NCBI GenBank assembly: GCA_036768485.1
Contig: JAVLUZ010000339.1
Span: 535,001-599,000 of the forward strand
Direction of reading: 5' to 3'
Source: Mermis nigrescens
Lineage: Eukaryota > Nematoda > Enoplea > Mermithida > Mermithidae
Length of the DNA: 64,000 nt
The position numbers were made by a program, and so were the translations under genes. Below, in pieces: positions 7,719 through 61,664 of the stretch. The first letter of the stretch is position 1. Each line of letters begins with the position of its first letter. A model generated the notes under the pieces. That model saw only the letters and a list, made by a program, of their open reading frames with translations, ran no database searches and was not told the origin of the DNA.

Positions 7719-10413
7719 AAAGATCATCTGGATCTGATCTTTTTATCCAGATTCAGATCCAGATCCAGATCATCTGGATCTGGATCTGGTTATTTTCTGA
7801 TCTGGTTATCTGATCTGTATCTGGATCTGCCAGAAAATCAAAACCCGATCTTTATCTGGATCTGGATCTGATTAGTCAAGTTATATCTGGTTAAACAGAT
7901 CAGAAAGTTATTTTTGCACGATGGTATTCTTTCTGTTTTACGATTTATTGTAGGTAGGTTATCTAATTAGTTGTAGCCTTACATGCATGGATTGTGTCCC
8001 AACAGCCCCACCAGTCCCAACAGCCCCACTTTCCCAACAGCCCTACCATCCCAACAGCCCCACCAAAAATCCCAACAGCCCCACCCATCCCAACAGCCCC
8101 ACCAGTCACAACAGCCCACCGTCCCAACAGCCCCACCAATAATACCAACAGCCCCACCGATCCCAACAGCCCTACGAATCCCAACAGTCCCACCGTCCCA
8201 TCAACCCCACCGTTCCAACAGCCCCACCGTCTTTACAGTCCCACCAATAATCCCAACAGCCCCACCAGTCTCAGGAGCCCCACCAATTCCCAACAGTTCC
8301 ACCGTTTCAGCAGTCCTACCGTTCCAACAGTCGCACTGTCCTAAGAACACATAAGCGTGTGGGAAGGGATGTTTAGAGTTTAACCCCCACCGAACCGAAA
8401 TTCTGGAAATCGCCCAAATTATGTTAGACCCGAGAACTTTATTTTTAGCACATTTCTGGTAACCCAACAGACCCACAGAATTTGTTCGCTGCCAATGTTG
8501 GTTCCAACTGCCCACTGTTATAATCATAGATGCACAGCACGACCGGTCTGGAGAAGGAGTTTTGGGCCAAACATTGACCTCAAAACTGGTATGAATGTTA
8601 AAATAGCGTAAAAACTACGCTAATCCACATTTTCTGGCTATTTTGAAGCAGATAGTATGAACGTTTTGATTTTCATTTAATTTTAACACTATCTTTCCTT
8701 TTTCACTAGAACATTTTTCATTTTTTCCTAACAGTGTGAAGTAGACCATAATGAGCAGGAATCCAATCTTGTGAGATGATTCGAATGAGGCAAAATCCTG
8801 GATTGCGCACAAATGCTGAAGCTTCAATTCTGGCAGGTCTACCAGTTTCTCAGGTAGACTTATTCTGAAAATGTAAACCTGCACACTCGTTTATGGTCCT
8901 GATGAAATATACGAATTCGGAAAATAGGCAAAAAATATCTGTCATAAAAAATTAATATTGCCTGATTTTATTATATCGTATAATAGCGATTGCAGTAATG
9001 GTGAGGCTGCTGGGATTACTGGTGGGGCTGCTGGGTAGGTGGGGCTGTTGGAACGGTAGGGCTATTGGGATTGGTGGGCTGTTGGGATTGGTGGGACTGT
9101 TGGGATTTGTGGGGCTGTTGTGATTATTAATGGGGCTGTTGGAACGGTGGGGCTGTTGGGACCGGTGGGGCTGTTGGGATTTTTGGTGGGGTAGTTGAAA
9201 CGGTGGGGCTGTTGGGACGGTGGGGCTGTTGGGACTGGTGAGGCTGTTGATACATCACCCATGCACGCGGGAATGGGGAGAGGGGTCTGCTGGGGGTTTT
9301 GACCCCCAGATCCGTGCTGACCCCCCAGAATAGCCAAAAAAGTGCCGCTGACCCCCCATAATTTTTTGCATTCAGAAAAATTTTTGAAGCTCTGCAGAAA
9401 AGCAACTCAAGTGATAAAAATGTATTGAAGGTTGTTTTTTCACATAAATGATCATCAGAATTGACCTTTGAGAGACTTTTTTGCCTAAAAATGAGAAAAT
9501 CTTAAATTTTTTCGAAACATTTTTGTTAAAAAAGTTGTTTTAGTCGATGCGCGACATCGAGAAACGTCTAAAAACAATGTTTCTAGTGCCCATGGGCCAT
9601 TTTTATCGCTTTTTTGATGTTTGAAAAAAAATTTGACCTTGATCTCCCAGAATTTCTATGCTGTACATGTATACTTTTAATAGTTGCATCTGTCATTTTT
9701 CAAGAATTTTAAGAGCGTTTTTCTTTGTTGAGCTGAAATTAAGCTGGTTTCTTCATAGTATTGCATTTTGTGTTGTTAGGTATATGTATTGTTTGTGTTA
9801 TTTGACAGTGATATCCCCCTGAAATAATACATTCTTTCTTTCTTACAAGCGATCGAAAGAAGCATTTGTTTCTCTTGTTTAACCACAATGTTGCCAAATT
9901 CCAGACATCTCACGTTCCTGTGAATATTTAATGCCGTTTCGTTTATAAAGTTGTCAATTAAAGCTGTTGTAATAATTTTTACATTTTTATGCCTCAATTT
10001 CATGCCCATTGGTAAATGTCTAAAGTTGTGAGTTTTTACTTTTTAGACAATTTTTACTGATATCATTTTTATGTAAAAGCTCTAAAATGCAAATTTTCCT
10101 CGGCTCTGCCCCAGACCCCTCTGGGGGCTCTTATATTAGTCCTGCCACCCGAGACCCCCCCAATCCATGTGGGCTCGGGCGCTTTACGCCCTCCTTTTCA
10201 GCAATACAAATTGCTGCACAAAAAATATTTTTATCTGGATCTGTATCTGTATCTGGATCTTTTTAAATTTTGATCTGGCAAAACGATCTGGATCTGGATC
10301 TGGTTATTTTCTGATCTGGTTATCTGATCTGGATCTGGATCTGCCAGAAAATCTGAACCCGATCTTTATCTGGATCTGGATCTGGGTAAAAATCTGGATC
10401 TTTTACATCACTA
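7719..10413. mobile_element. V1: hAT-type element with inverted GATCTG-word termini
   Basis: Left end TAGTGATGTAAAAGATC, right end GATCTTTTACATCACTA, flanked by perfect 8-bp GTTGCATC duplications at 7711-7718 and 10414-10421. About 170 bp inside each end is built from CAGATC/GATCTG repeats in inverted orientation. No transposase is visible, so it is non-autonomous. A second element (7990-9259) is nested inside. The length of 2695 bp is inflated by that insertion. Confidence 0.9.
7990..9259. mobile_element. Family I element with 18-bp inverted VNTR arms, copy 1
   Basis: The left arm (about 7997-8340) is some 19 copies of an 18-bp unit like TCCCAACAGCCCCACCAG. The right arm (about 9003-9250) is the same unit in reverse. 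Ends are GATTGTGTCCC and ...ACATCACC; flanks CATGCATG and CATGCACG give a 7/8 duplication. The long Pro/Ser/Gln open frames over the arms are products of the repeat, not genes. Confidence 0.85.
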
Positions 10414-10421
10414 GTTGCATC

Positions 10422-10643
10422 CATACGTGGGCAGCAAGAAAATTCTGGGGGGGTCCAAGATTTTTTGAAGGTCAAAAAATGGCCTTAAAAATGGTGATAT
10501 GGCGAGAAAAACACCATTTTTCGACGTTTCATCAGCACTATCCATTGGCATCAAAAAATTGCGAAAAAAAAACGAAAAAAATTTTCAAAAAATTGATTTC
10601 TGGGGGGTCCAGACCCCCCCAGATCCCCCCACGCCCATGTGTG
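10422..10643 (+). mobile_element. Family A MITE inserted beside V1 at the same target word
   Basis: Starts CATACGTGGGC and ends GCCCATGTGTG, with perfect GTTGCATC duplications at 10414-10421 and 10644-10651. The left duplication is also the right duplication of V1. Confidence 0.9.
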
Positions 10644-22892: not shown

Positions 22893-23769
22893 GATCGTCG
22901 TCTTCGCTGTCGCTTGAGTCGTATTCTGTTAATTCTACCTCTCGCTGCTTCGACGGGTCGTACAATCGGGCCGCCAACTTTAAAAATTCCAACGTCAGTC
23001 GAGTTGGCTTTCTTGACACTTTTTGAGGAACATGTACTTTGCCAGATTACCGGGAATGTGCGTTTTTTTGCGGTTTGACAATGTGCACACTGCCTTTGCC
23101 GCTCTGCAAGTAGACTATCACATAGTGATCGACCAGGGCGACTTTTTTGGCCGGGGCCGGGGCGGTACCGGGGCTGGAAAAAAATCCCGGCCCGGCCGGG
23201 GCCGGGGCGGGGCTGGCCGGGGTCAGACAAGGAAAATATTATTGCATGACACATACTTGGGGTGGGCATAGGAAAAGAAATAATGAGCGACTGCTCCATT
23301 CAGTAGTAAATGGCAAGCGCAAAGTTAGGTGCGCCTTTTCATATCAAGTTTTATTACTATTTATGTCACAAGAAACAAATTTAGTTCAGTGTTTCATTGT
23401 CTGAATCATCAATAAAGTCTATGTCGCTACTATTAGCATACTCTATATCATTTGAATCTTCGCTACTGCTACTGCTGCTGTAGCGATTGGATGCAATAGG
23501 TATTGGATGTAATAAATGAGACATCACACATTCCCATAAGGGGGAGGGGTATAACCCCCTCAGGGTCCAAGACACAAGTCACCGTCAGACGATTTTTGGT
23601 GAAAACCCTTTGAATTTTTCGAACTTAATTTTTTAGTATAGCAAAAGTGTACCTATCTATTAGAATTTCACGAAGTGATATATTATTTTAGAATGTGAGC
23701 TAGATTAAATAGAGAAACTATCACGAATAAAACATGCATGTAATCGCTTAAAATTTTATGAGGGTCCCT

Positions 23770-24060
23770 CAGTATACATGTAACGGCTGGAAATCTAGGA
23801 TAGGGGTCCCTCGCCATTTTAGAAGGAGAGGGTTAGCGACTAAATCAAAAATGGTAAAAACACATAAAAATAGCCAAGAAAGCGCAGGCTTTCGCCAAAA
23901 AATGGGGGAGGGTGATCAAATATTTTCTGACTTTCAAGGAAGTTTGGGGCTTCAAAGCGTGGATGGGGGATGGCCCAAACCCCCTGTCACTTGTATATTT
24001 CTCGGCCATTTTCAGGGGAAGAGCAGCCGCTTACCCCCTGAAAATCTTTAAAATGGTAGA
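23770..24060 (+). mobile_element. Family P MITE remnant inside V2
   Basis: TATACATGTAACGGCTGG at the left and CCCCCTGTCACTTGTAT near 23995. Matches the delimited copies at 41482-41724 and 62865-63041. Confidence 0.55.
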
Positions 24061-24074
24061 ATTTGCAATAAGGA

Positions 24075-24990
24075 ATTCTACACTTTTTTACAGTTTTTTC
24101 TCCAAAAATCTTTGTACATGTACAAAGATTGTCCTGAAACGTCTTTGTACATCAGCAAAAATCTTCGCCAAATACAAAAAATTGTGGTTCTAAATGTGAT
24201 AATTCGGCCTGAATTTAGTTGATAATATTAGTTTGGCGCGAAGTGCCGAAATTTTTATGAGCTTTTGATTGAATTCACACATAAAACTCGACTGAGAAAG
24301 CTAAAACAACTTGTACTACAAAATCAGAAATATTACAAAAATTGTAATATGCGAATTAAATCTTGTAATAAGCAACACTGCGCTTAGAATGGAAAAATGG
24401 AAAAATGTCAAATATTCAGAAACCCAAAAATTAGCCAAATACACTACTAAAGGTCGAAAAACTACGTTCTACCACACTGAAATCGTTACTGTACCATATA
24501 AAAGTATACAAAAATTTGCATGTACAAAACAGTGTTTTATTGTATTCGCCAAAGATTTTTCCCGATGTACAAAGACTTTTCAGGACTATCTTTGTACATG
24601 TACAAAGATTTTTGGGAAGATAAAAACTGTAAAAAGGTGGTAAATTCGAAAAAATTTTCGGCGCTTCGCTCCGATATGAAAACTTGTCTGTCCTATATAT
24701 CTTTAAAAGGGCAAAATTTGTATTTAGAATGGAAAAATGTCAAATTTTTAGGCGCTTTGCGCCGTTTTGAGACAATTTTAGTAATTTTTGGCGTTAGAAA
24801 CCCAGAAATTAGCTAAAATATACAATCAAAAGTCAAAAGACCCTGTTTTACCACACTAAAATCGCTACTGTACCATATTATAGTAACCAAAAATGTTTAA
24901 AAATATATTTATATAATATAGCTACAAAAATTTGTTAGCTCATACAAAGACCTTTTTGGAGATCTTTGTACAAGCACAAGAAGCTCGTAC
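24075..24990. mobile_element. Family F-derived block inside V2
   Basis: Two F ends (24085-24187 reversed; 24500-24650 forward) with CTTTGTACATGTACAAAG palindromes enclose DNA matching 42140-42350. A third partial end lies at about 24940-24985. Confidence 0.6.
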
Positions 24991-27900
24991 AACAAAATAG
25001 AGTCGGCTAATAATAGTCCACACTTAATTTTCTGGTCCTCCAATTTTGGATTTCATCCCTCCCTCAACTCTGGACCTTAGGAAACTATTTGAGACATATT
25101 AAGTTTATCGGATCGGACGCAATTCTGCAGCGTAGTTTACATTCGCCTATAATTAACCTCCGTCCTAATAACTATTACAAAAGAAACGCGTTTTAAAGCC
25201 CGTGGTTCCCATTCAATTAAATATAAAAGTGTTTTTGTAAAAATAGTTTGTTGAAAACGCACAATTTCCAACTATAAATAGAACGTATTTGTCAACTCTA
25301 AATCTTTTAGCCATAGCTATGAATGAATGAGTTAAAAGTAGCATTTAGTTTAAATAAGTTAAGTGGAGGAATCAAAAACATGAAGATTTTCCTGAACATT
25401 TTTTCAGTAAAGGATTAAGTAAGTATACATATGGTCTAATCAGTACAGTTCTCAAAATTAATACTTGCTCATTGATAAATAAGAGCCAGTATCACAGCCT
25501 GTATCAAAATACGAATTACACTAAATTTTTCCTCGGCCCTCGGCCATTTTTTGACCTTGCCCCGGCCGGGGCCGGGGATGCTCAAAAATGGCCGGGGATT
25601 GCCGAGCCGGGGCCCCGGTCGATCACTACTATCACATTAGCCAACTTGTCATAAATCGTAACTGCACATCAGTAAAATGTAACAAATGCCAAAAATGGTG
25701 CCATTTTTGCAAATGCTCAGGCCTAACTAACACTGCTGATTGGAACAACAAGTTCATTGCTCGATGTTGCCTTCAGCCTTCCAGTGATCGATCATCCCTG
25801 ATAAAACACCAACCTGCAGCCTTTCGTGTCCTGCAACTTGACTGCAATGGTCTATCCAATAAAACTGCAGAAATCACCAACTATTTTGAACGCAATAATA
25901 TCCTGCTTGGTGTTCTTCAAGAAACCAAATTGACCGCTCGGTCAACCCTAAAATCATTTGACAACTACACAGTCGTTTGACAGGACAGAGCAAATGCTGG
26001 CGGTGGCCTCGCTTTCATGATACATAAAACGGTCAAATACCGTTTAATCAACACGCCTGCACCGAACAGACATGATCAGTTCCTCAAACAACAAGCTATC
26101 ATCATTACATCTGGCAAAATTGATATCATTGTTTACAATGTTTATGTGCCACCAACAAGCAGCTGTGAACCTGGATACATTCCGTCCATTGAACACCTTC
26201 TTATCAGCAATGATGCACTCATTCTGGGTGATCTGAATGCTCATCATGATGCTTGATACTCAAAACTTGGTAACGACCAACATGGTATCAAATTTGCCAG
26301 ACAAATTGATGGCTCAACCTTCAGCATTCTTAACAAAAACAGCATACCAGAATCTCTGAAACTGCTCTAGTTCACCCGACATCAGTCTCGCCAATCCCAG
26401 CCTCCTGACCAGCATCTCTTGGTCCACAGCACTTACACTCGGTTCTGATCATCTACCAATCACAATCACCATCGAACATGCTGTTGACTTGGCAATCTCG
26501 GAATGCTGCACATATGTCAATTTTAACAAAGCTGACTGGGCATCATTTACTACCGAGACTGAAAAACATTTCTCCACACTACATGCACCCACCAATATCT
26601 ACAATGGTGAATGCATGTTCCAGAAAATTGTTTGCTAATCAATGACACATAACATACCAACTGGACGAATTCCTAAAATTCGTCCTTACTTTCCCACATC
26701 TGCTGCATTACTTGCCGATGAACATGATGCAGTTAGATCAGCTGATCCTTCAGACCCCAGTATACAGCAGCTAAACAATGAAATACGGAGATTGGTCAAT
26801 GATCACAGACGGAAAAATGGTCTGAACACCTGAACAATTGCAACCTGAGTCATGGTGTCTAGAAACTTTGGAAAACCGTCATGGCATTATCTAATCCTAT
26901 CATACGCAATGATAATATTGCAATTGATTTTGCTGGCACTGAAATAAATGACCCCAAGAAATGTGCCAAAGCATTTAATCGTCAATTTGTTGAACACCCA
27001 TCAAAACTTGACCCAACATGGCGCGCTACAATTTGAGCTTTTCATGCTCTTAACAACAATGGAAACATCGAGTTCACAACCGATGAAGTAGCTGCTGCGA
27101 TAAAATCATCTAAAAGTTCAAGAGCCATAGGCCTTGATGGCATTTCCAATATTGTGCTCAAACACATTGGTGCAAATAGTTTGAAATACCTAACCTACCT
27201 TTTTAACATTTCCTCTATCGTCATTGTTCATTCCCAGCATTTGGAAAATTGGGCGTATCATCCCGCTACCTAATGCAGGAAAACCAATAAATCAGAGCAA
27301 ATCATACCATCCTATTTCCTTGCTCTCGCTGGTAGCCAAAACACTTCAATCACTCATTCTCCCATTGCTGAATGAACATCTGCCGACAATGCCACACCAA
27401 CATGGCTTTCGGAAACTGCACAGCACCACAACTGCACTTCATGCCATCACAAATCAAATGAAAAATGGCCTTAACCAACAAAAACCAGCCCATCGTACTA
27501 TTGCTGTTGCTCTTGACCTGTCAAAGGCCTTTGACACAGTTAGCCATGCAACTCTACTGCAAGACATTCTTGTCTCTACACTACCCAACATGATAAAATG
27601 CTGGCTATGCAACTACGTACATGGTCGACAGTCATTCAATGAATTTAGAAACGAAAAGTCAGAACTCCCGAAAAGTCAAACAAGGCGTCCCACAAGGTGG
27701 TGTGCTGTCACCAACACTGTTCAATCACTACCTATCAAAAATCCCACCGCCAGCAAATGGCATCAACATTGCTAACATATGCCGATGATTGCACAGTTTT
27801 TGCAACTGGTCCCAATGTTGCAGAACTCTGCATCAAAATCAACAACTACCTTAAAGTCCTACACAAGTTTTCCACTAGTCGAAACATGAATCTCTCGACC

Positions 27901-28974
27901 AAAAAATCAACGGCTACACTTTTCACCACATGGTCGACAGAAATCAAAAATGAACTTGATGTGCAAGTTGCAGGACATCGCATTCCAACAGTGAAGAATC
28001 CCAAACTGTTGGGTGTTGTGTTTGACAACATGCTCACTTTCTCAACACATGCAAACTACATTTGCAACCGCCTCTCGTACACGCAATAATGTACTGAAGT
28101 CACTAGCGGGTAGTACATGTGGCAAAGACAAAGAAACACTACTGACAACATGCAAAGCTGTTTGTCATTCTGTTGCTAACTATGCCGCCCCAATCTGGAC
28201 ACCTCAACTCCGTCCAATCCACTGGACTACCCTACAAACAACACAAAATGCAGCTATGAGAACTATCACTGGCTGCCATCTGATTACCCATGCAGATCAT
28301 CTGCAAACTGAAACTAAATTGCTGCCCATTAAGCAACACAACAAAATGTTGTCAAGACAGTATCTACTGTCATGCAATTTGACCAACCACCCAAACCACA
28401 ACCTGATCACACAAGCCCGTACACCAAGAAATATCCGCAAAGATATTTCACACTACCAACCTGACATAGACCCAAACACTGAGCGACTCAACGCTGACAA
28501 TGCAAACTACAAAGGAGCCCTCAAAGATATACACAGCAAGGCAGTTGCAGACGGAATTGCAGGCTACAGACCAAACCTGGTGCTGGGCGGCTACCCACCT
28601 CCTGTAACATCAGCCGAACTTTGGCTTCCACGTGCCACAAGGACCGTGTTAGCTCAACTTTGCTTAGGATGGTGTCGGATGCTAAACACCTATCTGACAC
28701 GCCTCAACCCAACCATTGACAATCTATGCCCGGACTGTGAAAATGGGCCACATGACGTCCACCATCTTTTCCACTGCCCTACAAAACCGACCAATCTTCG
28801 TACAATCGACCTATGGAAACATCCAGTGGAAGTAGCATGCTTCCTGGGGCTGGATTCGACTGATCAATGATTGAGCACTGCTACAACAACCAACTATTGC
28901 ATTAGTGTGGGCGCCCATGTTTTATCTTTGAACGTGATGCTGTGATTAACCTGCATGAAAGAACTCATTAGGTA

Positions 28975-29522: not shown

Positions 29523-29960
29523 GCCTAACAAAAATATATTAGAAGAGACATAGGAAGAACATGACGCATGTACCTTCATTTACTAATACTAATACTAATA
29601 CTTAATTCGAAAAAAACGAGTAAAACAAAGTCACATCATTTGTAATCCTTCCCTTTTAACTAACTCTAACAACAAAAGCCTAACAAATATATATTAGAAG
29701 AGCCATCGGAAGTACATGACGCTAGCACTTTCATTTTCTAATACTAATACTAATACTTTATTCGGCAAAAGAAGGAAAAAAACGCAAGGGTAAAACAAAG
29801 TCACATTATTTGTAATCCTTCCCTTCTTAACTAACCCTAACAACAAAAGCCTTACAAATATATATTAGAAGAGACATCGGAAGAACATGATGCTAGCACC
29901 CTCATTTGTCACATTATTTGTAATCCTTCCCTTCTTAACTAACCCTAACAACAAAAGAAT
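29523..29960 (+). repeat. ~155-180-bp tandem repeat, about 2.7 units
   Basis: Units open with AATATATATTAGAAGAG (29526, 29682, 29862), include (CTAATA)n and GTAAAACAAAGTCACAT, and end CTTCCCTTCTTAACTAACC with AACAACAAAAG. The last unit is shortened. Confidence 0.8.
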
Positions 29961-41481: not shown

Positions 41482-41724
41482 CATACATGTAATGGCTTGA
41501 AATTTCGGGTAGGGGTCCCTGGCCATTTTTAGAAGGAGGGGGATTAGCGACTCTAATTTTATGTCAAAAATGGCAAAAGCACCTAAAAACAGCCAACAAA
41601 GCGCAAATTTTCGCCAAAAATGGGGAGGGTGGGTCAAAATTTTTTGACATTGGAGGGAAGGGTGTGGGAAGGACGTCCGACCCTGGGTGGATGGGGGATT
41701 CACCAAACCCCTGTTACACGTATG
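41482..41724 (+). mobile_element. Family P MITE in V6
   Basis: CATACATGTAATGGC to GTTACACGTATG; flanks CTCCTCGG and GTTTTCGG match 5/8. Confidence 0.65.
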
Positions 41725-42357
41725 GTTTTCGGCCATTTTTATGGGAGAGGGGGTAAATGATCACGAATTTTCGGCCGAAAATCGCAAAAACGCACCTAAA
41801 AATGGTCAATAAATGCAGGTTTTGCAAAAAATCAATTTCGGCTCGTGTATTTTTTAGAGCCATTTTTACACAATGTTAAAATACTTTCTTGGACAAAGTG
41901 ATATTAATTATATATTTTTCAGTATATTTTAGGAAATTTCAAAAAATTTTTCGGCGCTTAGCGCAAAATATCGCTAATATACTGTATTTAGATTGAAGCA
42001 GGGGAAATAAACACTCCAAAATCAATTTTTGTGTAATCTAGGCATCTTTATGCATATTTAAATATCTTTTGTATCTATTTATACTGTTTTTAAAAATTTT
42101 ATGCAAAATGAGTATTATTTAATAACTTTGCACTTTTTTGCCTTTCAAAGATAAAATTGACTAATTTATCCTGATGTTGCATTGGATTTCTAAGCACAGT
42201 AGTGCTTATTACAAGATTTGATTGGCATATTACAATATCTGTAATATTTCTGATTTTGTAGTACAAGTTGTTTTAGCTTTCTCAGTCGAGTTTTATGTGT
42301 AAATTTCATCAAAAGCTGATATCAACTAAATTCAAGCCGAATTATCACATTAAGGGC

Positions 42358-42745
42358 CACGGTTTTTTGTATTCGGCAAAGATTTTTCATAATGTACAGA
42401 ATCTTTTCAGGACCGTCTTTGTACATGCAGAAAGATTTTTGGATAGACAAAAACTGTAAAAAGGTGTAAAATTTTCGAAAATTTTCGGCGCATCAGTAAT
42501 TGTCTGTCCTATATATCTTTAAAATAGTAGAATTTGCATTTAGAATGGAAAAATGTCAAATATTCAGAAACCCAGGAATTAGCTAAGATACACTACCAAA
42601 GGTCGAAAAACCCTTTCTTACCACACTAAATCGCTACTGTACCATACTATAATACTACACAAAAATTTGCATGTACAAAATGTTCAAAGACTTTGGGATA
42701 CCATCTTTGTACACGTAAAAAGGTATCTTGCACAAAAAAACAATG
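42358..42745 (+). mobile_element. Family F MITE in V6
   Basis: CACGGTTTTTTGTATTCGGC to AAAAAAACAATG; flanks TTAAGGGC and TTTGGGAC match 5/8. V2 carries the same junction (AAATTGTGGTTCTAAATGTG reversed), so the insertion predates the split of V2 and V6. Confidence 0.75.
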
Positions 42746-43369
42746 TTTGGGACTGCATGCCGGTGGCAGGTCACACAATGGCAGTATGTAAAATGTGTAG
42801 GTTTAAAAATATATTTATATAAAATATCTACAAAAATTTGTTCGCTCATACAAAGACACTACTTAATTTACAGGTCCCCCATTTTGGGATTTCGCCCTTC
42901 CCTCAACTCTGGACCTTGGAAAACTATGATCAGAAAGTACAGTGCAGTTTTCGTCATATTACCTGCCACACCAGAATTGGATGACCGAAAAAACGTATTT
43001 AAACATGCATTACTGCAAAAGCGAGCACAACAATGGCTACAGTTCTGTCTTTACTTAGCTTATTTTGTTTGTTCGTTTATTTCTTCGACACTTATTCTTA
43101 TTTATAGTAATAAAAGTTTCTAAGTGCTTGTTCAGCCATATTTTTATCAACTTTTCCAAGTCTTCATCAATGGCAACTTGTTAAATTAAGTATGCTTTCA
43201 GGCTGCTGACTTTATTCAATAAATCCTTCACGCATTTAATCTACTATTATTGGAAATAAAAATGAATTGTTTGACATTTGATAAAGTATTTAATATTACG
43301 ATTATTCTCTAGCTCATGTGCATACAAAATATTCTAAGAGTACTATTTATAGGTATAGGTATATAAGCT

Positions 43370-43830
43370 TGACCCTCGGCACATAGTTTCCCAAGGTCGA
43401 AAGTTCAGAGGGGGTGAAATCCCAAAATTTGAGACCACTAAATTTAGATTTCTAGCCTTTTTTGCAGGTCAAATATGCAAAACGCTTAAAACATCCTATA
43501 TAGCATGCTTTAATGTGAAAAACTGCATTTTTAACGACTTTTTGTCCCATCTTGACTAGTTTCGTCACTCTTGTAAGTGAAAAAATATAAGAATTCATCG
43601 AAAATTTTGACTTTTCAGATCATTTTAAGTTCATTCTAGGTATTTTATGGGTAAATAAAACAGAAATGTAATTAGTCGGCGCGAAGCGCCGAAAAATTTT
43701 TAACATCTGTGCTGCTTTTTGTACCCAAAAATCATTGCAGAAACCATTTGATAGCTCAAAATCGTCTGACAATGATTCAAGTCTCAGACTCTGAGGTGGG
43801 GGTAATACCCCCCTCACCCCCTATGGGAAT
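43370..43830 (+). mobile_element. Family J element
   Basis: From CCCAAGGTCGAAAGTTCAGA through TTTCGTCACTCTTGTAA, a GGCGCGAAGCGCC hairpin and GACAATGATTCAAGTCTCAG to CCCTATGGGAATGTGTG. Colinear with 54790-57410. Confidence 0.65.
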
Positions 43831-45086
43831 GTGTGCCTCAGCATTACCCTCGGCCGAGGCAAGGATTTTAAGTCGCCTCGGCCTCGGCCGAGGACATGAG
43901 TCCAAAAAGTACCCTCGGTCCAATCACTGCTTCCCATATCAATAAACATTTAACTTGAGTGCATATAATATCTCATTGTGTGCTATATTACCTGCAGTCT
44001 AGGCCGCTGGTTTTGACTGCATATAATTTAACATTGTGTACTATATTGCCTGCAGTCTAGGCCGCTGTTTTTTGACTGCATATAATTTTACATTGTGTGC
44101 TATATTACCTGCAGTCTAAGCCACTGGTTTTTGACTGCATATAATTTTACATTGTGTGTTACATATATTATCTGCAGTTGGCTGCAAATAATTACTGCCC
44201 TAAACAACTCGCTGACTTTCTTTGCACTTGCACGCTATAGCACATATGCGTGCAATCGGTATTAAGGGTAACATGGGGCTACTTTGATCATGGAGCAACT
44301 TTGATCACTTTTGCGCGAATGGCTGAAAAACTTTAACCAACAGAGATAATTATGTTCTAATTTTTGTAAATCTTATATAAGTGGATGTCCCACTCACTAC
44401 AGAAACCTTAATTCGCATAATCTCATTGGTTTTATGTTATTTGCAAAATAGTAGAGAAAAACTTCAGTGCAGAATTTTTATTTTTAAGTAAATTATGATT
44501 TTTAACTTTTTCATGTGAAATTCATATTTCGGTTTCAGAAAGTCGTATGTTTTTAATCTATCTGGGTAAAAAAGTTTAGTTTTTAAACAATGCTGGGTGG
44601 GTAACATTGATCGCACACCAATTGTGCTGCTCTTAATTTTTTTGTTGGATTGCGTTGATCACTCTACTGCTTTGATCACCCTGTTGTTATGTATGTTCAC
44701 CATGTTAGGTGATCAAAGTAACCCACCTAAGTGGGTTGCTTTTGATCACACAACAGATTTTAAAAAAATAGCAAATAAAGCTCAAAATGATCATTTCAGT
44801 TTTGAAAAGGTCATCTCATTCAAAAAGTCGAGTTTTACTGACAAACAATAATTATAAGCTGAGAAAAAGGAAAAAAACAAGACAGTGATCAATGTAACCA
44901 CACCAATAAATACCGGTGATTACATTGCCAACATTTTTTAATTCTCTGTGCAAGTGATTTCATGAAAGTTTTCTTCATCATCTACTTGAGAAAAAGATTG
45001 GTCTTTCTATTTATATCATCTGAAATCGAAATTCATTCTCAGTGATCAGCAATTTTAATGGAACTGACCATAAATCAAATCAAAAT

Positions 45087-45880
45087 GGGTTTGGGGTCGC
45101 CATTTAGGCGCCTGACAGTTTGGCGCCGCCGTTTTGGCGCCAGCCCACTTTGGCGCCGCCGTTTTGGCGTCAACCCAATTTGGCACCGCCGGTTTGGCGC
45201 CTAGACAGTATGGCGCTGCTGTAGAGAAAAAATCAAAATTCCTGTGCAATAAAGAAAACATTTTTAAATTTTTTCCATGTTTATGTTATCACCGTGGAAG
45301 AAAGCAGATTTTAAACAGAAAAGCTGCAACTTTTACGGGCATGATTTCTTAATAGAGGACCCGTGCTTTTCACAGCATATCCTTTCAATCCCTTTCTTCA
45401 AAAGATCGAAAATTTATTTTGTACTCATTATATACATTCTGTAAGTGGAAAGCACGGGTCCTCTACTCCAAAATAAATTATGCGACTTTTACGACTGAGT
45501 AAAATGTTACGGCATGGTTGACAACTACAATGTATTCCATATGAGGAGAAACACTATTTCGTTTGGAAAAAATCTATGTCAAATGAATCAATGTGTTTTT
45601 GACCGAAATTTTCAGCTAAAGTCAATGTCAACTTGTTGCATTGATTGCAAGTATGTTATCTGTTTTTTCGTGTAATATGTTTTCCGTTATTTCATGCAGT
45701 TAATGAAAAACCTTTTCCAACTTTCAGAAAAAGGCAGAAAAAACCTGGCAGGATGAGAAAGGAAGCAGTATAAGAGATACATATGGCGCCAAACTGGCAG
45801 CGCCAGAAAGGGTTGGCGCCAAACCGGCCTGGCGCCAAAACAGCGGCGCCAAACTGACGGCGCCAAAACGTCGTAGACCC
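45087..45880. mobile_element. Inverted-VNTR element with GGCGCCAAA words
   Basis: GGGTTTGGGGTCGCC to TCGTAGACCC; flanks AATCAAAAT and AAATCAAAT (7/9). The arms at 45098-45220 and 45785-45870 are runs of TTTGGCGCCGCCG in opposite directions. GGG/CCC ends and a 9-bp duplication suggest a Mutator-like element. Confidence 0.7.
45353..45465. repeat. 113-bp hairpin with a ~20-bp stem
   Basis: TAGAGGACCCGTGCTTTTCA pairs with GTGGAAAGCACGGGTCCTCT across a loop of about 65 nt. Probably a tiny MITE; a hairpin RNA precursor is possible. Confidence 0.6.
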
Positions 45881-50300: not shown

Positions 50301-53300
50301 GAACAAGGTCATTGTTAAATTTTAATGCGAGTTATAGCAGTGTAAAGTCAGGAATTATATTTGCATGACTTTCATACATATAACAGGGGTTTCGGGAGTC
50401 ATTCCCACCCAAAATTGGTCTTCCTCATCCTCAAAGTCAAAATATTCTTGATCCTCTCCCCTGATTTTAGCAAAAACTTGCGTTTTTAGCCATTTTGAGG
50501 TATTTTTTGCCACTTTTTGGCCAAAATTGGAGTCAGTTACCCTCTCTTGAAAATGGTCGGTGTGGAGAACCCCACTTAAAATTCCGAGCCGTTACATTAT
50601 GATGATCTTCCATTTTCATCGATTTTTCTACTGAAAAATCGATCGAACTCTGGACAGACTACTAATTTGAATTTTCGCTGAAATTTAGCTTTTTTGGCTT
50701 TATTCGTTTAAAGCTTTTAAAACTATATTTAATTGAATTTCAATGTTTAACACTGTATATTTATTATGAGAAATAATTATTTAAGCAGTTTGCGCTTATC
50801 ATATTTGGATGTAACTTTTCTTGTTAAATTATCTGATTTTTCAGCTTATGAAGACTTAATTTAATGTCGATTCGTTTTTCCTCTTTTGCAATTTCTCGTC
50901 TAAAAATCAAGTTTAGTCTGTCACAATCACGGTTGTTTTTTGTATTCGGCAAAGATTTTTTGCGATGTACAAAGACTTTTGGGGACCGTTTTTGTACATG
51001 TACAAAGATTTTTTGGAAGACAAAAACTGCAAAAAAGGTTCGAAATTCGCAAAATTTTCGGCGCGCATCTTTATAATTTCAGAAATTGCATTTTGAAAGG
51101 AAAAATGCCAAATTTTTTGGCGCTTCGCGCCGTTTTGAGACGATTATTACTGATTTTTGCCCTCAGAAACCTAGAAATTGCTAAAATACGTAACCAAAAG
51201 TCGAACAACTCTGTTTTTGCCACACTAAAATCGCTACTGTACCATATTATCGTACCCAAAAATTTGTGTGTACGAAATGTACAAAGACTTTTAGGGACCA
51301 TCTTTGTACATGTACAAACGGACCTTGTACAAAAAAAAACACTGGTCACAATTCTTCAGATCCATGGGTTTTCGATTTTCTAACAAAATTGAACATAGCC
51401 CTCAAAAAGAAGCCCATAATCTAAATAAATTCAACTATTTATTTATGTATGTATGTGTACATATGTATCGATATTTTCCTAGATTTTACGATTTTCTAAT
51501 TTGTAACCTACTGACACTATTACAGATTTACGAAAATGTATGCAAGAAACTCAGTTATCGCATCATCAACGGCGAAAGGTTTCTTCCGATCATCCAGAAA
51601 TTTGTAAGTATGTACGTATACCTTTGCCTTGTTTTCGCGAATTCAAACGTTTTTGACTCCGCCCAATACCGGTGTCACGCCCGGTAGTGGGTATACATAA
51701 CCACGACATATTCATTATAGCGTGGGTCACTCCGCGTATTTACGTCTGTCGAGCCCCGTAATAATATTCATTTTGTAATATACTCCGCGTGTCTTTGTGC
51801 ACGTCAGTCGAGTTCAATCAATAATTTAGGTCAATATACTTCGACCACCTACCAGACTGACCATATGTTTGTTAAAGTCACTAGCTCGGACTGAGCTGTC
51901 TTGCGGATGGTGCAGCTGTATATATCGTCTGTGCGCACATGCATACAAAACCGTTGCTATTGGGCGAACCCAATAGCATTTATCAGCGCTGTCTCCTCAC
52001 TTAGCACTTAAACGTGCTGAGCTCGGACCGGTTCGCTTCAGTTGTCATGTCCCTTCAATATATGCGTTGAATTCCTGTTGTTTTGACGTGCGCATATAGC
52101 TTACAATAGTAGCGTGTCGCGTTTTCACCTGACACCGGGATGGCAATTTAATCCTAGGATAAAATACTTTAAACGAATTCGAAAAGCTTTAACCTTATTG
52201 TAGGATAGGATAGTTTGAACGCAGTTGTAAGACTTAACCTAATCGTTGGATAAAACAGTTTAAACGATGTTGCAATATACACCTGACCATGGGATAAAAC
52301 ACTTTAAACCAAGTTGCAAACTCTGAATGTTATGAAGTTGCAACGTTTGAGCCTAATCGTAGGATAGAACAGTTTAAACGAATTTGTGCAGCTTAAACCT
52401 AATCTTAGGTTAACACAGTACAAACAAAGTGAAAAAGTTAAAACCTAATGGAAGGATAAGACTGTTTAAACGAAAGTGCAGAGTTTAACCTGGTCATAGG
52501 GTAAAGCAGTTCAAACGAATTCGCAAAGCTTAACCCTAATCGTGGAATAAAACAGTTTAAACGAAGTTGCAAAGACTTTTCATTAAATTTTTAATCGCGG
52601 GCGATGGAATGTACTGATTTTTGAATGTGTCTATGTTTACTTTCCGACGTTTTATTTATGGAATCCGTGTGCAACGACTTGAAAAATTTAAGCTGTGATT
52701 TTTATCAATTTTGGGCATCTTTTTGAACTCTTCCTGAAAGTAGAAATGAAGAAACGTCCGTACACAGGGCTGTATATAACGGGGACGCCGGCGGCCCCCC
52801 CCTTGGCCGGAAAAAAATTTTTTGAGAGGTAAGGCAATGTATGGAAAGAGCATGTCGAAAAACGTGGTTTTTGCGAGTCATTTCGACGAATTTTCCGAGA
52901 TATAGACCAATTTATGTTGGATCCTTCCCCATCCCCCTTGGCCAGATACTGGATACGGGCCTGTATGTACATACATAAAAAACATTAAGGATTTAGCTTC
53001 AATCTTCGGCTAAAAGTCAGAGGAAAACAGTATGGTAAAAAATTTGCACTCTAAAGAACATATACATGTACAGCATGGGAATTCTGGGGGTAAGGCCCAA
53101 AAATTTTTTAAAAAGTTCCTTTTTGGGCTAAAAACCGATGAATACACGTCAAAAACACTGTTTTTTGGCGTTTCGGGCAATGCTCGTTCTTTCTAGCACA
53201 GTAAATGTAAAAAATTGAGAAAATTTGAAAAAAAATTGAGTAAATTGAACAAAATACGGTCAAAAAAATATGTGTATGGTGCGGAGCGCCGAAAATTTGA

Positions 53301-56300
53301 GATTTTTGAGCTAAAAATGGGCTAGAAACGTTCAAAAAGGCACACTTTTTACAACTTTCACCCACTTTAATCCATAATTCTAGGGGGTCGCAACCATTTT
53401 GCGGGGAGTCAGATGCCATTCTGAGGGGTCAACCCTCCCCCAAAGAAGACGTCTGCTAAAGAACCCATTTTTTACTTTCCATGCGATTTCTCTTCACGCG
53501 TATTCTCCTGCCTGTGGTTTTTAAGCTCGTTTATCGCGGCTACACTATGGCTAAGTATTCCACTACTTAGTTTGATTCAATATCCCCTCATCGTTCAAAT
53601 ACATTTCTCAAAAGAGTGCAATTTTAAAAACCCTGCCGTACCCAACTCTCTTTCACATGTATGCTTATAAGAAATTAATTATATATTTTATTAATTAAAT
53701 TTATTATAGCTCACAATGTTACGCTTCCGCCTCAGAGAACCCGTGATTATCACGCAACAGCGGCCAGGAGACCCGTTGTTGCTACTGCGAAACTGTCTGT
53801 TCCTAAGGTCGCGCCGTCGGTCAGCAAAAATAATGTCCTTAATCAAAAAGGTACCATAAGCATTAAGCACATTCGATACGGACTCTTTACCTTAATCTTA
53901 ATAAAAGTCGGCTTATTTCCTTACTGTATTATTGCTTTAATCATTTAATGCTTCCTAATATGTTTAGTTATTTATTGATGTATGTATTTTTAAAGTCAAT
54001 CGATAGTAGTCATACCTGGGCGTGGGCGGATTTGGGGGGCATGCATCCCCCTCCCCCAGAAACCAAAATAACCCCCAGAATTCAATTTTTGAAATTTTTT
54101 TGTTTTTTTCGCAATTTTTGATGCCAATGGATAGTGCTCGGTGAGAAACGTCGAAAAATGGTGTTTTTTCGCCATTTTATCATTTCTAAGGCCATTTTTT
54201 GACCTTTGAAAAAAGCTTGCCTACCCTCCTAGAACTTTGGTGCCGCCCACCTATGGTAGTAGTGTTTCTACCTCTGTAGTCTTAAATTTTTCTGTTTATT
54301 TCGCGAAATTTTTGTTGCTTTGTTCCGTTATGTAGTCAAATTTTAGCATTATGATTTTGCGGTCCCCAGTGTTTTTTATGTGTGCGAGGTGTCTTTTATG
54401 TACGTGTACAAACACGGTCCCCAAAACTCATTATACATCTTGCACTTGCGAATATTAGTTAATTGTAGTATGGCGCAGTAACACGGTCTTATAATAAAAG
54501 AAGATTTTGCTACCTTTATTAGTGTAGTTTAGCCAATTTATGGTATTCTGACTGTTAAAAATACAGAAATTTGGAAAACCTTTTAGAGACTTTAAATTTT
54601 AAATTTATTACATTATTAAACTTATAAGTGAAATTTCCAAAAACCTTTTAAATTTAAAGTATTTACTTTTAACACTTTTATGTTACAAAATTTTCTAGCA
54701 TTTTATCTTTTTTGTTCTTCCTTAAATCTGTTTGCTTCGGGAAAAAATATTTGTGAATTCAAAAAGTATGTATATTATGATGGTGAATATGATGATTATG
54801 CTATATGGTCATAATGTCCCAAGATCGAAAGTTCAAAGGGATAAAATTCGAAAATTTGGGACCGCCAAACTTAGGGTTATAGCCTACTCTGCAGGTCAAA
54901 TATGAAAAATGGCTAAAACATTATATATAACATGTTTTCAAACGAAAAACTGCATTTTAGAGTACAATTTGTCCAATTCTGAATAATTTCGTCACTCTTG
55001 TAAGGAAAGAATATAAAAATTCATTGAAAACTTTGACCTTTCAGATCATTTCAACTTCATTCTAGGTATTTCATTGATAAACAAAACAGAAATGTTCTCG
55101 TAGGCACGAAGCGCCGAAGAAATTTTGAGATCTTTGTTGCTTTTGTACTCAAAAATCATGCTGAAAAGCTTTGATGGCTCAAAGTAGGGATCGGACGAGG
55201 CCTCGGCCTCGGTAATCCTCGGTCTTTTTTGAGATCCCTCGGCCTCGACCGAGGGTCAGGTGAAAAATGGCCGAGGGACCGAGAGTTTTTCTAATTTTGC
55301 ATTTTTTGTGTGATACCGAAATAGCACAAATACAGTGAAAAGACGCATGTGCTACAAAAGACCCATTGCCTCAAATGTTATGCTAAGTCAATGCTGTAAT
55401 ATGCCAGCCTATAGACGGCAGAGACAAGACGCGTATGCTGATTAAAGGATTGTGTCTCAACAGCCCCCACCAGTCCCAACAGCCCCACCGTCCCAACAGC
55501 TACACCAAAAACCCTAACAGCCCCACCCGTCCCAACTGCCCCACCATCCTAACAGCCCCACCCAAATTCCAACAGCCCCACCAATCCCAGCAGCCCCACC
55601 AATCCCAGCAGCCCCACCAATAATCCCAACAGCCCCACCAGTCCCAAGAGCCACACCAATCCCAGCAGTTCTACCGTTCCAAGCAGTCCTACCGCTCCAA
55701 CAGTCGCACTGTCTTAACCAAACTACACATAGCGTGGGGGAGGGAACGTTTAGAGTTTAGTTCCCTCCCAACCCGAAATTCTGGGAATTCCCCAAATTAT
55801 AGTAGACCCCCCGAATTCTATTTTTAGCACATTTCTCGGTCACTTTACCCCACCAGACCCACAGCATTTGTTCGCTGCCAATGTTGGTTCCAACTGCCCC
55901 ACTGTTATAATCATGGATGCACAGCGCGACCGGTCTGGAGAAGGAGTTTTTAGCCAAAAATGACCTCAAAACTAGTATGAATGTTAAAACAGCGTAAAAC
56001 CTACGCTAATCCACATTTTCTGGCTATTTTGAAGCAGATTAGCGTGAAAGTTTTCATTTTCATTAAATTTTAACACTTATCTTTCCTTTTTTAACTAGAA
56101 CATTTTTCATTTTTTTCTGGCAGTCTAGACTAGGCCATAATGAGCAGGAATCTAATCCTGCAAGACGACTCGAATGAGGCAAAATCACGGATTGCGCAAA
56201 AATGCTGTAGCTTGAATTCTGGCGGGTCTACCAGTTTCTCAGGTAGAGTTATTCTGAAAATGTTAAGCTGCACGCTCGTGTATGGTCTTGATGAAATATA

Positions 56301-59300
56301 CGAAGTCGGAAAATAGTCAAAAAATATCTTGATCAAACGGAGCCCGTATAGGTTCTATGTTTATAAAGTACATTCGCCAAGCGCATTTCTCGTATAATAA
56401 CGACTTCAGTAATGGTGAGGCTGCTGGGATTACTGGTGGGGCTGTTGGAACGGTGGGGCTGTTGGGAAGGTGGGACTGTTTGAACGGTGGGGCTGTTGGG
56501 ACTGGTGGGGCTCTTGAGACATCACCGATTAAAGTTGGTACATTATGTGGGCGTTTTCCGTGTCCATGCATGCAAAACCTACTTAATGCATAAGCCCAAG
56601 TTGGGCATGGGTAGAAAATTCAAACGTTTTTCGCGATCGCGTTTTCGTTCCTTTTTTGTGAGCTGCATGGTGTATTATGCACATCGCATTTTGCTTCTCT
56701 TGCTCAGTGGAGCAGCCGAAAGTATGAGCATCTTTATAGAGAATTCAGCTCAGACAAAAACAAGACGGATTCTGCATTATGAACTCGATTAGCAATTTGT
56801 CACTACTGTGCCTGTCATTTGCATACCTAACGTTGAATAAAATTTAAATAATAGCTTGTTAGCTTTGAGCTATATTACACTAATCAAACCTATCGCTACT
56901 GTACCCACATCACATGGAGCATATATGTCCTATATTGTTTGTACTCATATACTCATATTATATCTATAACAAATCCTCGGCCCCTCGGCCTCGGCCGAGG
57001 TGAGGATTTCAAAGATCCTCGGCCGAGGGAAAAAAACCCTCGTCCGATCCCTAGCTCAAAGTCGTGTGAAAGTGATTCGAGTCTCGGACCCCGAGGGGCG
57101 GGGGCTAATACCCATACCTGGGCGTGGGGGGAGTTTGGGGGATATGCACCCCCCAGAAATCAAAATACCCCCCAGAAACCAAAATACCCCCCAGAATTAA
57201 ATTTTTGATTTTTTTTTGTTTTTTCGCAATTTTTCGATGCCAATGGATAGTGGTCGATGAGAAACATTGAAAAATTGTTTTTCCGCCATACCACCATTTT
57301 TAGGGCCATTCCTTGACCTTTGAAAAAATTATGCATCTCCCAGAGCTTTGGTGCCGCCCACCTATTGTAATACCCCCTCATCCCCTTCCCCCTACCATGG
57401 GAATGTGTGTATATGCTTATATGGTTTTGTGCTCATCAGACTTACACACCTATGTACTATCATTCGGTTTCCCTCAGATGTTTATCTGGCGTGTTTCTTG
57501 TCCAGACTCGTATACAGGATTTTATTCCAAGTGGGCTGAAAATTTTGAGGTTAAATATCTCGAGAAACATCGGGAGATAGGCAAAAATAAAGGCATTTTT
57601 TTAGTTAATATGTGCGAACTCTATACAATGATGAAGAGAAATTTCAAAACAATTTATAACATTTTTACTTTATTTCGAACTGAAATAAAAAATCTATTTT
57701 TAAACTATCTGTTCAACCGATTACACATCATTTAATCGACAAACAAATTTCTTAGCTTTTATTTTTTTATTTAACCTTTGTGGTTTGCAATGAATAACAA
57801 TACAGGAAATGAATAATTAGGCGCGAAGCGCCGAAAAAAATTTGACATGTTAAACATATACATATCTAACTCAAATTTGAGCGATTCGAACGGATAGAAT
57901 ACCGAAACTTCAAATAAACAATAAATAATTTAGCGTTTCCTAGCTTAAAAGTACCCAAAAGAAGCTGTTTTGACTGCGTTTTAGACCTACTATTTTTCCC
58001 TTGAAGCAACTCTTGCTTGAATCGTGAAAAAGCGTAAAACGACGTCTAAACGTATAATCTCAAATCATTTATTTTTCGAGCTGTTAATTGGTCCATCATT
58101 GGTGACCTTACATTTCGGGATATGTTCGCTGGGGGGGCAAAATAAAGTGCATTTCCTGACGTTGTCGAAGATGCACTTCGCATCAAGCTCATGAAATTCA
58201 AATTTTTCAAAAAAAATTTATCCCCTCTAATTTGGTATGAAAATGACGTTTTTTTTGACCGCGCTCGAAACAACCTTATGGAAAAGAATGAATTTATGGC
58301 GCTAAGCGTCAAAAATTTTGAGATCTCCCGGCAAAAAGGTGCCAATTTTCATTATTTTTTATGCAGGGCGGCCGCCCCGCCACGCGTACGTCCATGCTCA
58401 CAGGTCATTCCATCGCCCTTATTGTTATTTGTTTGAATGCAAATTTAAGCAAAAATATTTATGAACAATACACAAAATGCAACGAATTAAGTAGGTAAGT
58501 TTGAGAATTCGGCATTAAATTATAACAAAATTACTCATTTGAACCCCGCTTACCCCGCCCAAGGAAACTCGGTTACACTGTACATGTATATATGTAATTA
58601 TGTATATTGCATTATATTTCATTTTGTATTGTTCTATTTATGATGTATTTGACTCAGCGATCTTAAAGTTCTGTTTTATCGAAGAAATTGGCCTACAAAA
58701 AAGTATGCCAAATTTATTGGACGTTAACGCAAAGCCCGCCTTGACTGCCAGTTGTCATATAAATGGCCTGAATGCGTCTACGTATCGCAATCTCGACGCT
58801 TGTATGTCGTCGAGTATAAGCGAAAAGGGTTCCTACAGTAACATAAGCAACAATGGCATGCGGTGTACTGCGCCTTCTGTTACAGTAAACTATTTTTTTA
58901 AACTTTTTTCTCTCTTTTATACTTTTAATCCTCTAATTTGAGGAGATGCACATGCTGATATATTATGTACATAGGTTGCTTTGTTTCCCTGGACGTGCTT
59001 ATTTTTACTTTATTTCGCCTACGTTTTTAAGAATATATTTACTACATAACGTATTGTTAGCTCTGTGCTCGAAATCTTCATGGAATTTATACGTGACCTT
59101 TTCCGAATTGTGAATTTTTACATGGGATGGATAGGTCCTGTTGAGCACAGCCGAAGCTTTCTAGTTTTGAGATATGTCCGCTAGGCTTCTTTTTGCATAT
59201 ATTTCTATTATTATTATTATCATCATCATCATTATCATCACCAGACATCCAAAGCTTGAAAATTCTGGGGGGTTTGAAAACGAAATATTCTTGTAAAACG

Positions 59301-59807: not shown

Positions 59808-59904
59808 ATATAAGAACGATGTACATTTATCAAATTTCTATTGGCCGCCTAAAATGATATTTTTATAATTTTTCTTTATTTCGTGATTTTTTAGATGTCT
59901 TACT

Positions 59905-61664
59905 CAGTGATCGTACGGGGACCCCGACCCCGACCCCGACCCCGAAAAACCCCGGCCTAAACCCCGACCCCGACCCCCGACCGGGGGCATGATTTTTCGA
60001 GTCGGGGTTGAACTTTTTCGGGGGTGAAATATAACATTTTATTTGTTGGTACATAGAAGAATTGTATAAATAACAAATAAATTCGGAACAAGGACGATTC
60101 ATTCACCAGCAAAATTAATATGTTAAACTCGACACTCGCAATATTTCATAAAAAGTAAGCCTGGTCGCCATGTTGTTATGACGTGTACATACATGTTCGC
60201 ATATTTTCCATTTTGAAGTGCGCCGAAATTGCTGCGGAATCACAGGCGTAGCCGGGGGGAATGGAGGCACATGCCGCCCGGAATTTTTCAGAAATTATGT
60301 TGATTTTTCTGGCGCAATGTGTCCAGAACATTGAGTTTAAAAAGGCACACACGTCAAAATAATCCGGCGCTTCGCGCCGAGTCATTATTATTTATTGTTA
60401 TACAGATCCAATGAATTTAAAAGCTTGAATCTGTTAAAATAATCCAGCACTTCGCAGCACTTTAATGATTTAATGCACTATTAGTTCATTGAATGAAAAT
60501 GCACATGCTTGTTGAACATAATAGTAAAAGTGCGAAAATGTTTGCGTACCAATTTGTCTATTCTCTGCTTTGTTTATCTTTCTTTACAAGGACACATAAT
60601 TCTATTTTAAATGAAAGGAAATGCCAAATTTTCTTGTGTTTTTGCGCATTTTCTGTTTTCTGAACTAGTTCATAAGAAGGCCACAAATGGGCCTGAAAAT
60701 GGTAAGAACAAAATTCTCATTGATACATCTTTCAATGACTTATTGGTTGCGACCCGTTGCTGCGCTACATACTTAGCCAAGGTCGAAAAACGCATTTCAG
60801 CTCAGAAGTTTTGTGCAGTGGTGTTCATCAATTTTAAGTTTTTTTTGACTTAATTCAGAACCGAGATTTTGCCGATTTGCGGAAATTTTAACTTTACTAA
60901 TTAAAAATTAGAGTGCTTTTTTACAAAATTTTCGGGGGTTCTGCTCTGGACCTCGCTGGTGGCGCTTGAGCGCGCCACCCCAGACCCCCAGCCGTACAAT
61001 CTCGTTCTACATGTTAAAAGAGATTTTTAGGAGGACAGAAAAGGTAAAAGGATTAGGAATTTTTAAAAATTTTCGGCGCTTCGCGCCGCAATTAGTTTAT
61101 CTGTGCTGTATGATTTAAGCGGTATAAATTGAGTTTAAAGATTAAAAACGTCAAAATTTTCCTGCGCTTAGCACCGTCGATTATTGTCTTAGAGCGGTAA
61201 AATATGACTGAATTTCTTGATGCTTTGCGCCACTTATGATTTTCGAACTGTTTGTCATTAAAAAGGCGTAAATTCTACATGAAAACGGTAAAAATTTCGA
61301 AAATTTCCGGCGCTTCGCGCCATTGGCTCCTCTACAATCAGTGCGCCATAGAAAACCGTTATGAAAAAACTGTGGAAGAATACGAAAAAGCGAGAGCGAT
61401 TAGTGATTAAAATTGAAAGTAATGCTAAATTGCTAAAACCATGCTTGAACTTGGAATGAAAATAAAATGTTGAACATAACCAGCTTTATTAGAATGCTGT
61501 ACAAACAAGTGAAGGTATCGTTTTTATCCTTTTCAAATTGGTATGTAATCATGCAATGTTGATTGTTAATCTTCAACCCCGACCCCGACCCCGAAAACCG
61601 GGGTTTTTCATTCCCCGACCCCGACCCCGATCGGGGTCGAAAATCTGACCCCGTACGATCACTG
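59905..61664. mobile_element. V8: hAT-type element with inverted CCCCGA-word termini
   Basis: Left CAGTGATCGTACGGGG, right CCCCGTACGATCACTG, perfect GTCTTACT duplications (59897-59904, 61665-61672). CCCCGA words fill 59919-59990 and 61576-61645. The interior matches V4 in reverse. It begins 98 bp after the SLAIN stop codon and may lie in or beyond the 3' UTR. Confidence 0.92.

Follow-up and report, generated by a model that had tools for sequence, protein, structure and literature searches.

Hexamer words at the ends of eight hAT-type elements in a 64-kb stretch of the Mermis nigrescens genome: candidate transposase-binding sites that may have shifted family by family

Results

Eight transposon-like elements, designated V1 to V8, lie in a stretch of 64,000 nucleotides from the nematode Mermis nigrescens (GenBank assembly GCA_036768485.1, contig JAVLUZ010000339.1, positions 535,001 to 599,000, forward strand; hereafter the window, in whose coordinates all positions are given). 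Inward of a short terminal inverted repeat (TIR), each carries repeated six-base words that are mostly its own and are common to its two ends and its inner TIR, and in all seven elements that can be oriented the words at the left end point the same way along the strand as those at the right. We consider it about evenly balanced that the words are subterminal sites bound by hAT-type transposases, and that these sites changed from one family to the next.

The elements were checked by a scan that required a perfect 8-bp target site duplication (TSD), a match of at least 14 of 16 TIR positions and a pair spacing of 150-6000 bp. Nine pairs were returned from the window, comprising V1, V2, V3, V5, V6, V7 and V8, together with an inner register of V1 and a palindromic dispersed repeat, and none was found in any of 20 second-order Markov controls. 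The eight elements that a first-pass annotation had proposed exist at roughly the positions claimed, and seven have perfect duplications, as it had stated. Their start was displaced in one case, V1 (7709-10413; TSD GTTGCATC; TIR TAGTGATGTAAAAGATC, 16/16), which begins ten bases before the earlier start of 7719. The others with a TSD, none of the eight being assigned a strand, are V2 (23123-25628; TSD CTATCACA; TIR 15/16), V3 (31535-34202; TSD GAGGTCAG; TIR 16/16), V5 (36814-38824; TSD CTATGTAA; TIR TAGGGTTGTGCCGGGT, 16/16), V6 (40924-43929; TSD CTTCCCAT; TIR 15/16), V7 (55185-57053; TSD GCTCAAAG; TIR TAGGGATCGGACGAGG, 16/16), and V8 (59905-61664; TSD GTCTTACT; TIR CAGTGATCGTACGGGG, 16/16). The exception is V4 (34863-36024), which has matching tips (CAGTGATCGAC at both ends) and a TIR match of 14/16, and which shows no TSD at its flanks (CCCTTTTG / CTCCTCTA).

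Elements of the hAT superfamily have short TIRs with the consensus start YAGNG and a TSD consensus of nTnnnnAn. All eight tips fit YAGNG, as TAGTG, CAGTG or TAGGG, in agreement with the TAG/CAG tip described earlier; among the seven duplications, position 2 is T in five and position 7 is A in four. The TGATCG that was said to follow the tip is present in most elements, and is replaced in V1 (TAGTGATGT), V5 (TAGGGTTGT), V7 (TAGGGATCG) and at the right end of V6 (TGATTG); the shorter GATCG is kept in the tips of all elements except V1 and V5, with GATTG at the right end of V6. Similar tips are found in V2 and V3, and in V6 and V7.

A hAT transposase combines a BED finger with a PF05699-type C-terminus, and the absence of these domains is expected for any non-autonomous element. 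No Pfam transposase was detected in the 48 reading frames of the elements at an E-value of 0.05, three sub-threshold matches (including a weak DUF7027 in V4) being disregarded, and the longest stop-free run was 137 amino acids; mobilisation would therefore be in trans. Miniature inverted-repeat transposable elements (MITEs) are shorter than about 600 bp and present in many copies. The V elements share with them the lack of coding capacity, no transposase domain appearing in any frame, and measure 1.16-3.0 kb with nested insertions counted in. We read them as non-autonomous hAT-type DNA transposons; the even weighting given above applies jointly to the whole of our preferred explanation.

Joining the flanks of each element, with one TSD copy removed, and searching the window with the product revealed a paralogous empty site of V6 at 39415-39647 on the minus strand (92% identity over 233 columns across the junction), and two related empty sites of V7, one at 43639-43810 on the plus strand, inside the right part of V6 (79% over 175 columns), and another with 68% over 156 columns. 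V6 and V7, at the least, are therefore true insertions; no empty site was found in the window for the other six elements. The V6 empty site is overlapped by the left copy of an inverted pair (39277-39544 and 43929-44199; 92.6% identity) that is built of 59-bp tandem repeats.

Short repeated words are found in the outermost ~70-190 bp at each end, and these subterminal repeats are clear at 14 of the 16 ends, being mixed at the left and weak at the right end of V4. When cyclic hexamers were counted over both ends, with rotation and strand ignored, the dominant classes were AGATCC in V1 (written GATCTG in one rotation and strand), CCCCGG in V2, AGCCGG in V3 (CCGGAG), ACCCGG in V5 (GACCCG), AGGCCG in both V6 and V7 (CTCGGC), and ACCCCG in V8 (CCCCGA), with a weak CCCGGG in V4 (12 windows against 8 for CCCCGG). 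The claim that each element has a word of its own stands for most of them, with the reservations that V6 and V7 share one, as the list in the first-pass annotation already shows, which leaves seven words for eight elements, and that V4 is mixed. A lag of 6 was the best period at 12 of 16 ends (the misses being the left end of V2, the right end of V3 and both ends of V4). Random windows beyond the elements gave the same best lag in 184 of 3519 cases. The word classes were denser in the 16 terminal zones (15-104 windows per class in 2.4 kb) than in the other 61.6 kb (10-135).

The agreement between the two ends of an element was assessed over the 40,320 permutations of left and right ends. With 6-mers, the true pairing alone reached its own score in all three settings; with 5-mers, 1, 2 and 2 pairings reached it. 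Likewise, the match between the inner TIR and the array of the same element was attained by 2, 3 and 6 of 40,320 pairings in three settings, and the best match of the inner TIR was to its own arrays in six of the eight elements. In a table of ends by words, the words were mostly exclusive to the ends of their own element. A departure is the right end of V2, where outer copies are mainly CCCCGG and inner copies mainly AGGCCG, the word of V6 and V7.

The first-pass annotation had described the word runs as inverted, and this was not upheld. Beyond the TIR, the majority direction of the word on the plus strand, counted in overlapping windows, is equal at both ends in 7/7 orientable elements; V4 has no orientation to read, its word CCCGGG being its own reverse complement. 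The arrays so counted, all on the plus strand, lie at 7726-7890 and 10233-10397 in V1 (where ~145 bp of the left end recur near the right end in direct orientation, at 86% identity), 23149-23222 and 25534-25612 in V2, 31562-31635 and 34098-34185 in V3, 36833-36968 and 38701-38790 in V5, 40942-41018 and 43848-43893 in V6, 55201-55276 and 56975-57028 in V7, and 59921-60023 and 61576-61639 in V8. Polarity is strongest in V5 (38 forward to 0 reverse windows at the left, 24 to 0 at the right) and weakest in V6 (13 to 5 and 13 to 7). Strand-specific k-mers, in six settings, gave direct matches the advantage over inverted ones in 8, 7, 7, 7, 7 and 7 of the 8 elements, V6 being a tie or the miss. When the outer 300 bp of the two ends were aligned, the sole inverted alignment in V2, V3, V5, V7 and V8 was the TIR of 16-17 bp and the rest were direct; V1 aligned in both orientations, V6 by its TIR alone, and V4 not at all. 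Since the TIRs are inverted and the words are not, the word stands in the orientation of the TIR at one end and is reversed at the other, as seen by eye.

Another pair of arrays, at 45090-45201 and 45784-45869, consists of TTTGGCGCC-type repeats that are inverted and ~600 bp apart, with no clear TSD seen; this is possibly a further element with repeated terminal words.

The words are related. Five of the six other distinct words differ from the V2 word CCCCGG by one cyclic substitution, and GC-matched random word classes gave an equally good hub in 100 of 20,000 draws. The outlier is the word of V1, three substitutions away from that of V2. V6 and V7 have a common word and similar TIRs, and no match between their interiors.

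The interiors hold insertions of their own. Element Y is nested in V1 (7990-9259; TSD CATGCATG/CATGCACG, 7/8, with its own inverted CCCAACAGCCCCACC arrays) and in V7 (55448-56526; perfect TSD GATTAAAG, 8/8); its words of 17-18 bp are truly inverted, and its tips have G instead of YAG. Block Q is nested in V2 (23525-25089; perfect TSD TGAGACAT; TIR not established) and in V6 (41233-42928; TSD ATCGGAAA/ATCAGAAA, 7/8), with no clear TIR and with duplications that were found by eye. Common descent had been considered from the shared interiors of V1 and V7, and of V2 and V6; it was rejected in both cases, as the shared interior is nested Y or nested Q, with its own duplications and at different places. 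The nesting itself carries the caveat that two of the four duplications match at only 7 of 8 positions and that the window holds no empty site for any of the four. Most remaining matches among V interiors, including the blocks of V3 and V5, involve sequence that is also repeated in other parts of the window. V4 and V8 share an inverted block of 435 columns at 84% identity, from which their common descent is possible. The window showed no second copy of any V family, as judged by its interior.

Between ends of different elements, the best alignments were V2 right with V7 left (101 columns, 80%), V6 left with V7 left, V2 right with V6 left, V2 right with V3 right, and V2 left with V3 left. The alignment of like ends, which ranked first of 32 groupings, is driven by the words, because the grouping vanishes on masking. 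With words and TIRs masked, V2 right with V7 left ranked third of 120 pairs, behind V3 left with V8 left and the two ends of V1, and its score was reached by none of 300 shuffles; of seven further pairs put to this test, three did equally well. Descent of the ends from one another is suggestive only.

Relatives were also sought in viral contigs, with TIR patterns other than those of V1, V4 and V8 and among records from which those near the genome of the window may be missing. There, 13 stretches matched four TIR patterns and were dismissed as chance, the opposite end being found within the stretch in 0/13; the 90 bases inspected of each (31 in one of them) contained no word arrays.

Other repeats in the window include a 417-bp element at 50928-51344 (perfect TSD GTCACAAT; TIR CACGGTTGTTTTTTG/CAGTGTTTTTTTTTG, 13/16), with relatives of 68-84% identity inside V2, V3, V5, V6 and elsewhere, and a 155-bp tandem repeat of 2.4 copies at 29521-29907. 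A decayed non-LTR (long terminal repeat) retrotransposon of the long interspersed nuclear element (LINE) type spans 27194-28870, with a reverse transcriptase domain (PF00078) in 27194-27775. Its part at 27995-28870 matches 126 proteins; the relatives named by organism among the 120 matches listed are six, all from insects. Five of them cover most of the query at 44-50% identity, and the sixth covers 19% of it at 63%.

Discussion

The explanation that we favor is that of a bipartite end. The tip, which hardly varies (YAGNG, in most cases with GATCG after it), would be the cut site of a hAT transposase. The repeated 6-bp words, which extend inward for a further ~45-175 bp (less at the right end of V4) and have their first copy inside the TIR, would be the subterminal sites to which a transposase multimer binds by its BED zinc fingers. 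Because word direction is constant along the element, one end has the words in the orientation of the TIR and the other has them reversed, which may give the two ends distinct identities, as in Hermes. Between families the word differs mostly by single-base steps from CCCCGG, and most copies at both ends carry the change, a pattern to be expected if the word and the specificity of the transposase moved together. Protein binding, the use of polarity, a distinct transposase for each word, and co-evolution are what we infer from this pattern.

Plant hAT MITEs, with YAGGGGTG tips followed by runs of GGGCC, GAGCC or CGGGT, have a similar look of a tip plus short GC-rich runs, with runs that are mirror-inverted. 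The comparisons that follow draw on excerpts of the papers cited. Ac/Ds of maize, a hAT system, has an 8-bp TSD, an 11-bp TIR and terminal zones of ~200 bp with multiple 6-bp AAACGG repeats, which the Ac transposase binds cooperatively (PMC3260210). The elements of the window resemble it in the TSD, the 6-bp subterminal unit and the size of the terminal zone, and differ in that the Ac family has one word, whereas here seven words, mostly GC-rich and often in tandem, occur in 64 kb. Furthermore, apart from the TIR and a few hexamers, Ds1 elements have little in common with Ac (PMC3260210). V6 and V7 are alike in a comparable manner, with a common word, similar TIRs and no interior match.

A parallel to the polarity is found in Hermes, a hAT element of the house fly, where repeats STR2-7 of the left end are antisense (STR1 is not) and STR1-5 of the right end are sense, the first right-end repeat lies inside the TIR and the repeats are concentrated near the tips; symmetrised ends, both of the left type, gave little mobilisation, with most activity lost (PMC10368747). 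If sense and antisense are counted from the tip inward, which is our own reading of the excerpt, Hermes shares with the V elements a repeat orientation that is opposite between left and right ends (the left STR1 apart) and a repeat embedded in the TIR, and differs in its AAG(T/C) repeat, which is scattered instead of a tandem hexamer, and in being one family. In Kat1, a domesticated hAT of Kluyveromyces lactis, hexamers (AATTCA/TGAATT) near the TIRs differ in polarity between the two TIRs (PMC4763223). Kat1 is thus similar in its hexamer unit and in this polarity contrast; it is a single domesticated locus in which the role of the repeats is the speculation of its authors, and the excerpt describes no radiation of families (PMC4763223). 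In Herves, a hAT of Anopheles gambiae, the transposase binds to CG/AATTCAT, a short motif that lies subterminally at either end, and treats left and right ends differently; a single family and motif are involved, with no hexamer arrays described in the excerpt (PMC3143072). Regarding change of motif within a genome, two subfamilies of soybean CACTA/Tgm differ in their subterminal motif together with their transposases, and co-evolution of the motif with its binding protein was raised by the authors (PMC2613891). This is another superfamily, with a 3-bp TSD and CACTA TIRs, longer motifs (17 bp in Tgmt*) and, in the excerpt, two motifs only. A search of literature titles and the starts of abstracts, in a collection that lacks most subscription journals, gave among the matches listed no description of a genome in which a number of hAT families each have a subterminal word of their own.

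The earlier proposal of a radiation of binding sites is accordingly retained in part. The hAT anatomy, the word common to both ends and the inner TIR, and the single-substitution relations are as a radiation predicts, and the unit length (Ac, Kat1), the terminal zone (Ac, Hermes) and the polarity (Hermes, Kat1) have precedents; the inverted runs that it described are not there. Its arms race, like the reading of different words by different transposases, is conjecture.

Several observations count against the explanation. The 48 frames without a Pfam transposase offer no protein to compare with the words, and with a single copy per family in the window the constancy of a word within its family is presumed. 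V4 lacks a TSD and mixes its words, and without its weak word the hub has four one-step neighbours instead of five; the word of V1 is 2-3 substitutions away from every other word. V2/V3 and V6/V7 are not independent, as their tips are similar, and the orientation of V6 is slight (13 to 7 at the right end, with a k-mer tie or miss in most settings). Masking words and TIRs leaves weak spacer homology, and the grouping of ends by polarity (A/B), first of 32 before masking, comes 14th after it. In maize, moreover, hexamers are neither sufficient, since the hexamer-bearing Ds-l elements tested did not excise, nor strictly required, since some Ds1 elements lack them (PMC3260210). In Hermes, BED contacts were seen at the left end only and the right-end repeats had none, the symmetrised transposon was not rescued when the outermost 50 bp of one end were given back their repeat asymmetry, and mutation of the inner left-end repeats left ~70% of activity (PMC10368747). 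From these three results, polarity may matter less than we propose.

The strongest alternative, somewhat unlikely in our judgment, is that one tolerant hAT transposase moves most or all of the elements, the words being its sites drifting within a degenerate recognition rule while its specificity is unchanged. A single transposase family for all the words deserves this weight because most of them differ by one base, five of the six others lying one base from the V2 word; the retention of the GATCG tip outside V1 and V5 (as GATTG at the right of V6) and the mixtures of two words at the right end of V2 and of several in V4 point the same way, and Ac is able to act on some elements without exact hexamers (PMC3260210). 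Set against it, most elements have a nearly pure word, which both ends and the TIR hold in common, and free drift should mix the arrays more than is seen, since clear mixing is confined to V4 and part of V2, with little in V3 and at the left end of V5.

It is improbable, to a clearly greater degree, that the words are microsatellites that grew by slippage from the inner TIR, were made uniform through conversion of one end by the other and play no part in binding. Such an origin would account for the word in the inner TIR, for the resemblance of the arrays to hexamer variable number tandem repeats, and for the ~145 bp common to the ends of V1. However, slippage from an inverted TIR predicts mirror-oriented arrays, and those observed share one direction; spacers interrupt the arrays, which are clear at all ends but those of V4; and outside V1 the left and right arrays match only along stretches of 14-96 bp, with no match between the arrays in V4 and V6. 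The notion that the common factor is a structure of the terminal DNA, hairpin or quadruplex, and not the word is very improbable, since, although the single-stranded folding of 8/16 ends is much stronger than that of their shuffles (z -6.2 to -3.4) and some words are G-rich, the right end of V4 and the left and right ends of V5 were matched or beaten by 46, 34 and 156 of 200 shuffles (z -0.6, -1.0 and +0.7), which eliminates the hairpin as common factor, and the words of V1, V3 and V6/V7 have no run of three G, the folding having been computed for hairpins only.

Returning to the binding-site explanation, a more far-reaching form of it, which we hold only tentatively and as less probable than the binding-site reading itself, is that one hAT lineage split within one genome into several addresses that do not cross-react, by one-base shifts of the word away from an ancestral CCCCGG. 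Each shift would take in both arrays and the copy embedded in the TIR and would be paired with a change in the BED finger of one transposase, so that non-autonomous elements are sorted by word. Under such a split, the right end of V2 would be an element caught in mid-shift.

Conclusion

To our knowledge, how a cut-and-paste transposase changes its specificity, when both ends and many repeats must change with it, is an open question. One-step variants of a word behind similar tips form a natural series for testing the recognition of words by BED fingers, and such a series also lets one read how transposon families become isolated from each other. In addition, the same-strand polarity in 7/7 orientable elements would extend the end asymmetry of Hermes to a wider group.

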